Shown here: in pieces, positions 19,073 through 48,108 of the stretch | Position numbering within the stretch: the stretch's first letter is position 1 | How the letters are laid out: each line of letters begins with the position of its first letter | Source of the DNA: Bacillus sp. sid0103 | Lineage (GTDB): Bacteria; Bacillota; Bacilli; Bacillales_B; DSM-18226 | Reading direction: 5' to 3' | DNA: 64,000 nucleotides | Assembly: GCF_019219025.1 (NCBI RefSeq) | Contig: NZ_JAHUWN010000015.1 | Span: 62,001 to 126,000 of the forward strand | Notes under the pieces: model-generated | Databases searched by the model: none | Told to the model about the DNA's origin: nothing | The model's input: the letters and a program-made list of their open reading frames with translations, nothing else | Made by a program: the position numbers and the translations under genes

Positions 19073-19189
19073 GTTTTACATATTTTGCACACCGTCAACA
19101 TAACTTGAAGCGGGCAAGACTTTTTCTCTAGACCCATCTAGGTTACGTTTGCTATGATTTCTAGAGGTATTTTTAAAGGTGGTTTACTT

Positions 19190-20086
19190 ATGGAAATGAG
19201 AGAAACTCTGGCTAAAAAAGTGGCCTGGATTAGTGTAATCAGTAACATTTTTCTTACATTAGGGAAAATAATCATTGGTTGGGTTGGCAATAGTGACGCG
19301 GTGTTCGCGGATGGGATCCATTCAGCAGCAGATGTCTTTGCCTCCGTGATTGTCCTGCTAGTAATAAAAATCGCTAATAAACCAGCCGATAATGAACATC
19401 CCTATGGGCATGGAAAAGCAGAAGTCATTGTTTCTGGAATTATCGGGATCTTGCTTTTTCTTGTCGCCATTTATGTGGTTTATGAAGGCATTAGCGGTTT
19501 CTTTCACGAAGTCGAATCACCAAGTTTACTGGCAATGTGGATTGCCCTATTCTCATTTGTAACGAAGATAATTTTATATCGAAGTTCGTTAAAGGTAGCA
19601 AAACAACATAACAGTAAGGCCATAGAGGCGATAGCATTTGATCATAAGGCAGATATTGTGGCCTCCATTGCGGCAGCCATCGGGGTGATCCTTTCCGTTG
19701 CCGGCAGCCGCTTTGATATTCATTTCTTACTATACGGTGATAAGGCAGCCAGTATTTTTGTCGCTTATTTAATTTTTAAAATTGCAAAAGAAATGTTAAC
19801 CGAGGCTTTTGATATCCTACTTGAACGTAACATTAATACAGAAACACTTCAGGAATACATTGCCATTGTAAAGGGATTTAACGAAGTAAAGCGAATTGAC
19901 CGGATTAGGGCAAGAGAGCTTGGGCATTATGTAGTGGTGGATTTACGGATTTCGATTGATCACTATAAAACCATTAAGCAGGGGCACGACCTGGCAAAAG
20001 CGATTAAACAAAAACTTATGGATAAAAACGATAACATTCAAGAAGTTTTAATTCATTTTAATCCCTTTTTTGCAGAAGATGAATAA
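19190..20086 (+). CDS. Cation diffusion facilitator (CDF) family transporter
   Basis: A protein of about 298 residues with six membrane helices. The DGIHSAADVF motif in helix 2 and AFDHKADIVASIAA in helix 5 supply the paired Asp/His metal ligands of the CDF family. A C-terminal cytoplasmic domain (residues about 210-298) follows. The DxxxD arrangement and size resemble the manganese exporters MneP/MneS of B. subtilis; Zn2+ or Fe2+ export is also possible. I chose ATG 19190 after AAAGGTGG over 19154. Confidence 0.88.
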   Translation: MEMRETLAKKVAWISVISNIFLTLGKIIIGWVGNSDAVFADGIHSAADVFASVIVLLVIKIANKPADNEHPYGHGKAEVIVSGIIGILLFLVAIYVVYEGISGFFHEVESPSLLAMWIALFSFVTKIILYRSSLKVAKQHNSKAIEAIAFDHKADIVASIAAAIGVILSVAGSRFDIHFLLYGDKAASIFVAYLIFKIAKEMLTEAFDILLERNINTETLQEYIAIVKGFNEVKRIDRIRARELGHYVVVDLRISIDHYKTIKQGHDLAKAIKQKLMDKNDNIQEVLIHFNPFFAEDE

Positions 20087-20102
20087 ATCCAAAAAAACTC
20101 CT

Positions 20103-20131
20103 TTGTACTTTAGGGGATTTGGGTTTATGAT
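20103..20131 (+). promoter_or_regulatory. Candidate sigma-A promoter for corA
   Basis: TTGTAC (20103-20108) and TATGAT (20126-20131) are 17 bases apart, placing transcription start near 20138, before the structured corA leader. Confidence 0.5.
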
Positions 20132-20149
20132 AAGATAGGAAATATAAAA

Positions 20150-20315
20150 AGTTAGAGGGAGTTGATATTTTTGTGTTATTCCGTAGACCCGGACCCAAGT
20201 AGTAGGCGAGGGGAAGTCAATGTGATCTTTGAATGGATTGAATTGAATATCAAGAATATCAACTCTAGAAAAGGTTGTTGGCTTCCTCGAACAAAGTGAG
20301 TGAGGAGGTTAAATC
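20150..20315 (+). promoter_or_regulatory. Structured corA leader with SD-sequestering switch
   Basis: GAGTTGATATT (20159-20169) pairs perfectly with AATATCAACTC (20255-20265). CTTCCTC (20282-20288) can pair with GAGGAGG (20302-20308), the corA Shine-Dalgarno. The same CTTCCTCG (20282-20289) can instead pair with CGAGGGGAAG (20207-20216), allowing a two-base bulge, which would free the site. These exclusive pairings suggest control of corA translation. I do not recognise it as the ykoK M-box or another named riboswitch. A short ORF runs through it. Confidence 0.6.
20171..20299 (+). CDS. Putative corA leader peptide with DPDP motif
   Basis: A 42-codon ORF from TTG 20171, preceded by AGAGGGAG about ten bases upstream (an in-frame TTG at 20162 is too close). 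It begins MCYSVDPDPSSRRGEV and stops at 20297-20299, 16 bases before the corA ATG. The acidic-proline run DPDP followed by RR resembles the Mg2+-sensing leader peptide MgtL of enterobacteria (EPDP), where such codons destabilise ribosomes at low Mg2+. The TTG start and small size make this tentative. Confidence 0.45.
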   Translation: MCYSVDPDPSSRRGEVNVIFEWIELNIKNINSRKGCWLPRTK

Positions 20316-21254
20316 ATGCTGGAAATTTTTAAAAGTACAGAGACAAAAGTTTTAGAAAAGGTAGATGTAATTTCAAAAGGGTGCTGGGTTAATATGTATG
20401 CCCCAACACAAGATGAGATCAATAAGGTATCAATGGAAGCTCAAGTCGATGTAGATATCATTAAGGATGCTCTCGATGATGAAGAACGTCCGAGGATTGA
20501 ACGAGATGATGGCCGAGTCTATATCATTGTCGACTTTCCCTATATCGTTCATGATGAAAATGGTTTTGCTGGGTATGAAACGATTCCAATTGGCATTATT
20601 CTTACAGATGAATGTATCATTACCGTTTCCTTAAAAGATACCCCAATTTTAGAGGAATTCCGAAAAAACAGGGTAAAAGAGTTTTTTACATTTAAAAAGA
20701 CCCGTTTTGCGTTGCAAATATTGTTCGTTATTTCTTCGTTTTATCTACGTTACTTAAAACAAATTAACAAGAAGACTAATGAAATTGAACATGTCGTTCA
20801 TCAATCATTGAAAAATAAAGAGTTGTTCGCCTTTCTGGCATTAGAAAAAAGTTTGGTTTACTTTACGACTTCGTTAAAGTCGAACAAGGTTGTCCTCGAT
20901 AAGATCCTTCGTTTTAACTATTTAAAAATGTATGAAGAAGACAAGGACTTATTAGAAGACGTTATTATTGAAAAAACACAGGCGATTGAAATGGCCGAAA
21001 CCTATCGCTCGATTTTAACAGGAATGATGAATGCCTTCGCATCCATTATTTCAAATAACTTAAACATCGTAATGAAGTTCTTAACTTCGATTACCATTAT
21101 TCTATCCTTCCCAACGATGGTGGCGAGTTTTTACGGGATGAATGTGGATATTCCCTTTCAGCATGCTACCCATTCCTATGCGATACCACTAGTAATCTCA
21201 GCATTTTTAACGAGTTTAACAGCTTTTGTTTTTTGGAAAAAGAAATATTTTTAG
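20316..21254 (+). CDS. corA: CorA family magnesium/divalent cation transporter
   Basis: A 312-residue CorA protein. It has a large cytoplasmic N-terminal domain, a long stalk helix (about residues 170-245) and two C-terminal membrane helices. The pore signature YGMNV is present at the end of the first helix and the C-terminus is the basic KKKYF. It imports Mg2+ and possibly Co2+/Ni2+ as a pentamer. The start follows GAGGAGG. An unusual 165-base leader with a short ORF precedes it. B. subtilis YfjQ is the likely ortholog. Confidence 0.93.
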   Translation: MLEIFKSTETKVLEKVDVISKGCWVNMYAPTQDEINKVSMEAQVDVDIIKDALDDEERPRIERDDGRVYIIVDFPYIVHDENGFAGYETIPIGIILTDECIITVSLKDTPILEEFRKNRVKEFFTFKKTRFALQILFVISSFYLRYLKQINKKTNEIEHVVHQSLKNKELFAFLALEKSLVYFTTSLKSNKVVLDKILRFNYLKMYEEDKDLLEDVIIEKTQAIEMAETYRSILTGMMNAFASIISNNLNIVMKFLTSITIILSFPTMVASFYGMNVDIPFQHATHSYAIPLVISAFLTSLTAFVFWKKKYF

Positions 21255-47937: not shown

Positions 47938-48108
47938 TAAAAAAAGCCTTCTATAAGAAGAAGACTTTTGTAAGTACGACCAAAGCGTCATTCTTCTTAT
48001 CTCGCAAATTAGAAAATAATTTGCAGGACTTAGCACCTTTTCAATGGCGAGCCATTGATGGTTGCTGAGGTGTCGCAGGGCCATTCCCTCAACCTCTCTT
48101 GATAAGAA
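47938..48108 (-). promoter_or_regulatory. SAM-I (S-box) riboswitch
   Basis: On the minus strand the aptamer reads CTTATCAAGAGAGGTTGAGG, GGCCCTGCGACACCTCAGC and AACC, then AAGGTGCTAAGTCCTGCAA, the SAM-I core. Downstream, AGTCTTCTTCTTATAGAAG with GGCTTTTTTT provides the terminator; its 5' arm can pair with the aptamer's TTATC/AAGAAG segment in the antiterminated state. High SAM should stop transcription of metI-metC-yitJ-metH. Confidence 0.95.

Follow-up and report, generated by a model that had tools for sequence, protein, structure and literature searches.

The corA leader and its surroundings

The stretch of DNA analysed here, called the window, comprises 64,000 nucleotides of a contig of Bacillus sp. 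sid0103. It contains a leader region which is located between the gene of a transporter of the CDF family and corA, and not in an mgtC-mgtB operon. In an earlier note, made from the sequence alone, three elements had been described in this region: a 42-codon reading frame which runs across the leader and stops 16 bases 5' of corA, an 11-bp helix over the start of this frame, and a CTTCCTC element able to pair with the Shine-Dalgarno sequence GAGGAGG of corA. The coordinates of all three were confirmed from the sequence (Table 1). The TTG start codon follows nine bases after a Shine-Dalgarno sequence, AGAGGGAG, the GGAG-like core of which is mostly kept across alignment A1, and the helix, named P1 here, overlaps this site and lies just 5' of the TTG. 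The note had further suggested that the anti-Shine-Dalgarno strand can pair alternatively with a stretch behind the DPDP codons. This alternative pairing exists, but the register originally chosen for it (CGAGGGGAAG, 20207-20216) is surpassed by one in which GGGGAAGTCAA pairs with TTGGCTTCCTC. The resulting helix P2 comprises 11 base pairs including G-U, and since it shares the anti-Shine-Dalgarno strand with helix P3, which closes the ribosome binding site of corA, the two helices are mutually exclusive.

Boxes like those of the candidate promoter were seen by eye 5' of many homologous leaders among those listed, while a promoter scan of the window gave no flag at these positions, and a scan of 19900-20400 revealed no intrinsic terminator-like site around the leader. 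Folding of 20138-20340 yielded -50.7 kcal/mol as compared to a shuffled mean of -40.15 (z -2.68), four of 200 shuffles being equally good. The product of corA matches CorA chains in the PDB. Its score with TIGR00383 (136.6 bits) is below the equivalog cut-off of 200.75 for Mg/Co transporters, and Mg2+ can therefore be regarded as a putative substrate only.

Table 1. Features of the corA leader in the window and of M-box-bearing loci in relatives
Feature	Position	Strand	Details and basis
CDF-family cation efflux gene	19154-20086	+	directly 5' of the corA leader
Candidate corA promoter	20103-20131	+	TTGTAC 20103-20108, 17-base spacer, TATGAT 20126-20131; seen directly in the sequence
Leader ORF Shine-Dalgarno AGAGGGAG	20154-20161	+	from the sequence; partly within helix P1
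P1 5' strand	20159-20169	+	covers the leader ribosome site; covariation, duplex z, cis versus trans pairing
Leader ORF	20171-20299	+	TTG start 20171, 42 codons plus stop TGA 20297-20299; peptide LCYSVDPDPSSRRGEVNVIFEWIELNIKNINSRKGCWLPRTK
DPDP codons GAC CCG GAC CCA	20186-20197	+	residues 6-9 of the leader ORF
P2 5' strand (anti-anti-SD) GGGGAAGTCAA	20210-20220	+	spacing in 74 leaders; duplex energies; covariation
P1 3' strand	20255-20265	+	covariation, duplex z, cis versus trans pairing
Anti-SD TTGGCTTCCTC (P2 3' strand, also P3 5' strand)	20278-20288	+	part pairing in P3: CTTCCTC 20282-20288
corA Shine-Dalgarno GAGGAGG (P3 3' strand)	20302-20308	+	sequence, covariation
corA-family transporter gene	20316-21254	+	ATG 20316, 312 aa; PF01544 188.5 bits
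M-box before CorA homolog, no DPDP leader	L203:131-295
M-box before CorA homolog, no DPDP leader	L205:274-437	-
M-box before CorA homolog, no DPDP leader	L206:281-446	-
M-box before CorA homolog, no DPDP leader	L211:322-489	-
Tandem M-box, hairpin and EPDP leader	L130:1282-1679
Tandem M-box, hairpin and EPDP leader	L132, M-box 1731-1899	-

Conservation of the leader peptide

Eighty CorA loci were fetched from records mostly named Neobacillus, Mesobacillus, Peribacillus, Cytobacillus or Bacillus. An open reading frame with an acidic-proline motif is found 5' of corA in 77 of these (75 with strict [DE]P[DE]P, two with DPEG), and L076, L079 and L080 carry no motif-bearing leader frame. On both strands of the same loci, 1.08 Mb of related sequences, a single further frame with the motif is located more than 260 bases away from corA, and its peptide turned out to be the displaced corA leader of locus L021 itself. 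When the 191 upstream regions up to L198 were pooled and duplicates removed, 118 of the 170 unique regions contained the strict motif, at residues 6-8 of a frame which starts 118-162 bases 5' of corA and in most cases has a length of about 30-47 codons. The tetrapeptide is DPDP in 55 of these leaders, EPEP in 26, EPDP in 21 and DPEP in 16, encoded by 37 different 12-mers. L021 is counted among the remaining 52 only because an insertion shifts its DPDP frame further 5'.

Comparison of 74 distinct leaders, including that of the window, yielded a pN/pS of 0.07 for the motif (pS 0.620, pN 0.046); the leaders had been picked by the motif pattern, which may bias pN downwards, though this selection lost only three leaderless loci besides four duplicates. 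The four codons before the motif have a ratio of 0.49, and a stretch located 3' of P2, aligned without gaps in 40 leaders, has one of 0.83. The codons of the motif are under purifying selection at the level of the amino acids. The C-terminal part of the peptide varies in frame, length and sequence between relatives, with stop codons found from 47 bases 5' of the corA start to beyond that start. Across the 74 leaders the anti-Shine-Dalgarno strand has no fixed reading frame: 34, 15 and 4 leaders translate it in one of the three frames each, and in 21 it is located 3' of the stop codon. Selection on this strand therefore acts on the RNA.

The distance from the first base of the motif to the 5' strand of P2 is kept at 21 bases in 57 and at 24 bases in 14 of the 74 leaders, the window having 24. 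The P2 strand in these 71 leaders is situated just ahead of the front edge (about +18, judged by footprint size) which a ribosome would have when it holds the first proline of the motif in its P site. According to passages of PMC11282234, this is the state in which EttA-EQ2 traps ribosomes on MgtL.

Two deviating forms of the leader were encountered. In L142, L151, L155, L164, L175, L187, L190 and L195 the tetrad reads KPDP, QPDP, NPGP or KPGP, such that the prolines stay and the first acidic residue is lost. The leader of L021 (2715-3009) exceeds that of L018 by about 126 bases due to an insertion with inverted arms, as judged by eye, between the P2 5' and the P1 3' strands, and this insertion preserves the reading frame as well as both pairing regions.

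Conservation of the RNA helices

For the pairing analysis 75 chosen sources, all of which were matched and kept, were arranged to alignment A3, which was fitted to P1 and P3 and not to P2. It includes L138, which is not located before corA; L135, L137 and L138 are without letters at P2. Pair counts were taken from A3 because A1 sets the anti-Shine-Dalgarno of Peribacillus one column off. P1 and P3 together had 95.7% of cells paired (47-68% in slid registers) and two-sided changes in 10 of 18 pairs (shuffled mean 5.4), and on all five measures none of 500 shuffles was as high, figures which, like all others given below for the helices, are optimistic as the sequences are related. For P2, 90.0% of cells were paired, a value reached by six of 500 shuffles (slid registers 28-62%). 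Two-sided changes occurred in five of its 11 pairs, which was reached by 15 of 500 shuffles when pairs and by 29 of 500 when cells were counted. No shuffle out of 500 was as high as P2 in the covariation score, 110 of 500 were so in further pair types, and the outermost pair was unpaired in 42 of 72 cells. The covariation of P2 is weaker than that of P1.

Duplex energies were compared with those of shuffled sequences in 39 representatives less than 80% identical to each other. P1 had a mean z of -3.30, with 30 of the 39 representatives reached by at most five of 100 shuffles, and by the same measure 31 representatives passed for P2. For P3, windows set on the Shine-Dalgarno sequence gave a mean z of -2.25 and 24 of 39 at no more than 10 of 200 shuffles; the windows used first, which clipped short hairpins, had given -1.25 and 13 of 39 at no more than five of 100. 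Among the eight representatives not matched by R1, a covariance model built on 28 sequences for P1 and P3, five passed for P1, five for P2 and two for P3. CTTCCTC is present in 24 of the 39, where 0.45 would be expected. Foreign strands beat a leader's own 5' strand in 16.9% of comparisons for P1 and 27.9% for P2 (50% expected), with the own strand being the best of all partners in just four (P1) and two (P2) of the 39 leaders. The earlier note had proposed to weigh conserved codons against conserved base pairs across corA leaders. Both are kept, the motif codons being selected and both exclusive pairings covarying.

Occurrence in the order and class

All genome-wide statements rest on relatives of the window strain. 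R1 matched in 50 of 397 genomes of the order to which the Neobacillus drentensis genome G001 belongs, in 48 of these before CorA, and at the wider level of the class in five of 299 genomes, with two false matches among them; these counts are lower bounds because R1 missed the EPDP leader of L201. The false matches, L139 and L140, were the sole new ones at class level and are GAGG-rich hairpins without corA downstream. Also rejected were L085-L088, further matches in four genomes, which are weak (E 0.007-0.58) and on contigs different from that of the corA match; L136 has no CorA alongside.

The CorA protein of this type (E <= 1e-70) is found in 105 of the 397 order genomes. The sample drawn from these contains 108 upstream regions, i.e., all rows but the partial G231; R1 matches 50 of them and misses the other 58. 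A strict [DE]P[DE]P leader is present in 59 of the 108, namely in 39 of the 50 and in 20 of the 58. Of the 49 others, 21 fit a looser acidic/proline pattern, and by eye about eight have a reading frame without the motif and about 20 are leaderless; they include a KPGP/NPGP/KPDP group without an acidic first residue and MDSDAHP leaders without the alternation. Leaders not matched by R1 such as L141 (EPEP) are unlike the others in sequence, yet by eye have the same order of start, motif and anti-Shine-Dalgarno. At class level, where 28 regions were fetched out of 67 new rows, only L201 (GEPDPD) has this leader by eye.

The match L138 in genome G299 (minus strand, 1501-1612) is the sole one seen with P2- and P3-like parts, GAGGAAGTC, GACTTCCTC and GAGGAGG, before a gene other than corA. 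It contains a short reading frame (MSSPSIGESDKSSTPEEV...) and precedes a DUF1003 (PF06210) protein. The records of L015 and L047 bear the names Paenibacillus sp. BSR1-1 and Chryseobacterium sp. ISL-80, but CorA and leader in them are as in Neobacillus and Mesobacillus, which points to misnamed or contaminated records.

Relation to the M-box riboswitch

A known riboswitch, had it been found over the leader, would have spoken against the reading of the earlier note. No Rfam family matched over the leader itself at gathering score in the window and 36 leader-bearing loci, and three sub-threshold matches near or over the window leader looked like chance. The Mg2+-sensing M-box (RF00380) did not match over the DPDP leader in the same set; in L130 and L132 it lies 5' of the leader. 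In these two loci, from genomes G061 and G015, the order is M-box (160.7 and 160.1 bits), G+C-rich hairpin, EPDP leader and corA, with the R1 match of the leader situated 50-51 bases 3' of the M-box. At class level an M-box was detected 200-260 bases before a CorA homolog with 46-55% identity in four of the 23 regions scanned out of the 28 fetched. A reading frame with TDDPAIG, noted by eye in L203, L205 and L206, was considered as another acidic leader and dismissed, as the M-box matches there make an expression platform likelier.

Five leader-bearing genomes tested genome-wide (G001, G003, G004, G016 and G206) are devoid of an M-box. Seven others (G065, G100, G189, G302, G343, G350 and G363) have one elsewhere in the genome, and a scan of 19 order regions without a leader found no M-box at corA, so that the one does not simply stand in for the other. 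An M-box is present in 13 of the 105 genomes which have this CorA, a lower share than among those lacking it (91 of 292; Fisher p 1.5e-4, uncorrected for shared ancestry).

Comparison with known leaders

By motif, the corA leader appears closest to MgtL, the leader of mgtA in E. coli and Salmonella. In both cases a short reading frame with an N-terminal acidic-proline tetrad precedes the gene of a transporter, here of the CorA family and putatively for Mg2+, and EPDP itself occurs in 21 of the 118 strict leaders. The EPDP of MgtL is described in passages of PMC11282234 as a ribosome-destabilising motif on which EttA acts, and high Mg2+ suppresses such abortion of translation in E. coli according to a part of PMC9718836. 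Mutually exclusive RNA folds are another common trait (passages of PMC11282234 and PMC11552253). As described there, MgtL acts on transcription termination. Here the anti-Shine-Dalgarno is predicted to pair with the ribosome site of corA, and the covarying pairs reach the corA Shine-Dalgarno. With no Rfam match at gathering score over the leader in the window and 36 further loci, the RNA was not seen to resemble that of enterobacteria in fold or sequence. Rfam includes an mgtA-leader family. The concept of ribosome destabilisation reportedly goes back to Chadani et al. 2017.

By function the closest counterpart would be mgtQ, a reading frame before mgtB of Salmonella, for which passages of PMC8092293 describe the same switch logic on the mgtB ribosome site. 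The same passages report acidic residues near the N-terminus of the short frame and exclusive stems (1:2/3:4 versus 2:3), one of which closes the ribosome site of the transporter, an arrangement found in the corA leader by covariation and folding. They also report that translation of the leader and its start codon are needed for the ON state and that completed translation is unfavourable. As described there, mgtQ differs in having eight codons, in its location within the mgtCBRU operon, and in its Asp2 and Glu5 without an EPDP tetrad; the corA leader has mostly about 30-47 codons, precedes corA and occurs in Gram-positive hosts. CorL of gammaproteobacteria, according to passages of PMC11552253, is likewise a short frame in a corA leader with its Shine-Dalgarno in a stem and an inverse relation of corA expression to leader translation, but it has a single proline in its conserved N-terminus and its output is via Rho. 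A gammaproteobacterial corA motif was described by Stav et al. with 325 representatives from gammaproteobacteria and metagenomes (in the part of PMC6429828 at hand). The window leader had no match in Rfam, which may not include that motif. The M-box confers on transporter genes the Mg2+ control which is proposed for the corA leader, but is a direct Mg2+ aptamer.

The earlier note had known of no such leader before a Gram-positive corA, and a literature search with most subscription journals outside its reach found no Gram-positive leader like MgtL or CorL; passages of PMC8632094 and PMC12810186 mention none either.

Ribosome-masked folding and a possible mechanism

Folding was performed with ribosome-covered bases masked and pseudoknots ignored in the 39 representatives. 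The mean accessibility of the corA Shine-Dalgarno was 0.07 in the free RNA, 0.26 with a ribosome at the start, 0.12 with one paused at the motif alone, 0.39 when the region from start to motif was covered, and 0.04 with a ribosome past the motif; with a ribosome at the stop codon it was 0.44 in 22 leaders. In the window the values were 0.00 (free), 0.03 (start), 0.00 (motif pause), 0.72 (start to motif) and 0.00 (past). In 31 of the 39 leaders, covering start to motif gave an accessibility more than 0.05 above that of the past state, and in eight it did not; the reverse was seen in none. After shuffling of the region from motif to Shine-Dalgarno, the mean difference between the held and the past state was -0.05 (15 sets, -0.10 to -0.005) as compared to 0.35 in the real leaders. 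In shuffled leaders the site stays half accessible wherever the ribosome is placed (0.32 held, 0.37 past) and also without one (0.35 free), and the predicted ON state with its 0.39 is no more accessible than these. What the real leaders contribute is therefore a tight closure which is relieved by a ribosome held upstream. A further 23 leaders, 22 without strict motif plus L201, had means of 0.39 held, 0.05 past and 0.08 free, with seven of them remaining below 0.10 when held.

Computation thus establishes a reading frame with codon-level selection on its motif, covarying helices P1 and P3, a conserved P2, and a folding logic, and from sequence comparison the corA leader appears to be a real, conserved regulatory leader of two layers, peptide and RNA. 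An MgtL-type motif in an RNA switch before a gene of the corA family suggests Mg2+ sensing via ribosome stability here too. The best account, to which we assign a probability of roughly 70%, is a translation-abort leader which controls the translation of corA, with Mg2+ as the likely signal. Abortion of ribosomes at the motif in these bacteria, Mg2+ as the signal and the direction of control in the cell are parts of this account that we infer. Ribosomes would initiate at TTG 20171, and the nascent acidic-proline chain would destabilise the ribosome (intrinsic ribosome destabilisation), more strongly at low free Mg2+. Repeated aborted rounds would hold the start region single-stranded with P1 open and never cover GGGGAAGTCAA, so that P2 could form and capture the anti-Shine-Dalgarno, setting the corA Shine-Dalgarno free for synthesis of the transporter. 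With ample Mg2+ ribosomes would continue beyond the motif and across the 5' strand of P2, P3 would form and the corA site would be closed, as it would likewise be if the leader is not translated and P1 and P3 form together.

The reading of the earlier note as an MgtL-like Mg2+ sensor is upheld in part, as to the conserved codons and the exclusive, covarying pairings, but has to be modified in its mechanism. It had proposed that loss of the ribosome at DPDP unmasks the corA site. Plain loss is predicted to yield P1 plus P3 and hence the OFF state (0.07; 0.00 in the window), and it is the repeated abortive translation which would yield ON (0.39; 0.72). Pausing at the motif alone is predicted by the model to be insufficient for ON. 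A pseudoknot of P1 and P2 would make ribosome loss itself the ON state.

Alternative explanations

The same motif and RNA switch could respond to another signal, such as charged tRNA-Pro, the activity of EF-P or an ABCF protein, or ribosome stability in connection with bL31 and zinc. Both prolines occur throughout the strict set, though the set was itself defined by them. In Salmonella, charged tRNA-Pro is the signal for mgtP and L31 that for mgtQ (passages of PMC8092293), and the action of EttA on the EPDP of MgtL (passages of PMC11282234) would fit as well. This option is nevertheless considered unlikely, as the acidic positions alternate between D and E without losing their charge, there are just two proline codons, and the gene controlled is a CorA-family transporter, homologs of which are preceded by an M-box in four relatives and by the tandem arrangement twice. 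Ordinary translational coupling, in which ribosomes that reach the end of the leader disrupt P3 and make way for translation of corA, with DPDP tuning the flow and corA being expressed highest when the leader is well translated, appears improbable. It can draw on the accessibility of 0.44 computed for a terminating ribosome in those 22 of the 39 leaders which allowed this test, and on the 21 of 74 leaders with the stop codon before the anti-Shine-Dalgarno, but the wide range of stop positions is not tied to P3, and the P2 strand after the motif, conserved and pairing as it is, would have no role.

A riboswitch for a metal or metabolite with the reading frame as a bystander might be imagined from the covarying structure and from the M-box before the CorA homolog of some relatives. 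The leader proper of the window and of 36 further loci matches no Rfam family at gathering score, the motif is selected for its amino acids, and the leaders without R1 match keep the order of parts and by eye show no aptamer-like core, all of which makes this very improbable. Hardly credible, finally, is a leader frame which encodes a working small protein: it persists at about 30-47 codons in most strict leaders, yet its C-terminal half is free to vary in frame, length and sequence, in line with the pN/pS found after P2.

Implications of the translation-abort reading

If the translation-abort account applies, many relatives of Bacillus may measure Mg2+ by the firmness of their ribosomes. The evidence tips slightly in favour of Gram-positives owning a separate, widespread class of ribosome-stability Mg2+ sensors, in which the RNA has been rebuilt across lineages while the tetrapeptide and the three-helix logic were kept. 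Mg2+ sensing by nascent-chain ribosome destabilisation would then not be an enterobacterial peculiarity but operate in Gram-positives too, at the ribosome site of corA, and the EPDP held in common with enterobacteria would be a convergence on a physical property of ribosomes. In some lineages such a leader would be a main Mg2+ sensor in place of a riboswitch, as in the five leader genomes tested without M-box, and in the two genomes with the tandem arrangement a single transcript would be controlled first by a riboswitch and then by a ribosome-stability sensor. These two tandem leaders make a riboswitch and a ribosome-based sensor, plausibly for the same ion, comparable before one gene. Mg2+-dependent abortion of Bacillaceae ribosomes at EPDP-like sequences becomes testable, and the 37 distinct motif 12-mers with their matched RNA switches constitute a natural library.

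Other riboswitches in the sequences scanned

Apart from the corA leader, the window contains a SAM riboswitch (RF00162) at 47994-48108 on the minus strand with 93.9 bits. Among the other loci, a c-di-GMP-I riboswitch was observed at L128:1018-1104, a fluoride riboswitch at L111:436-495 on the minus strand, and a T-box at L058:6439-6655.
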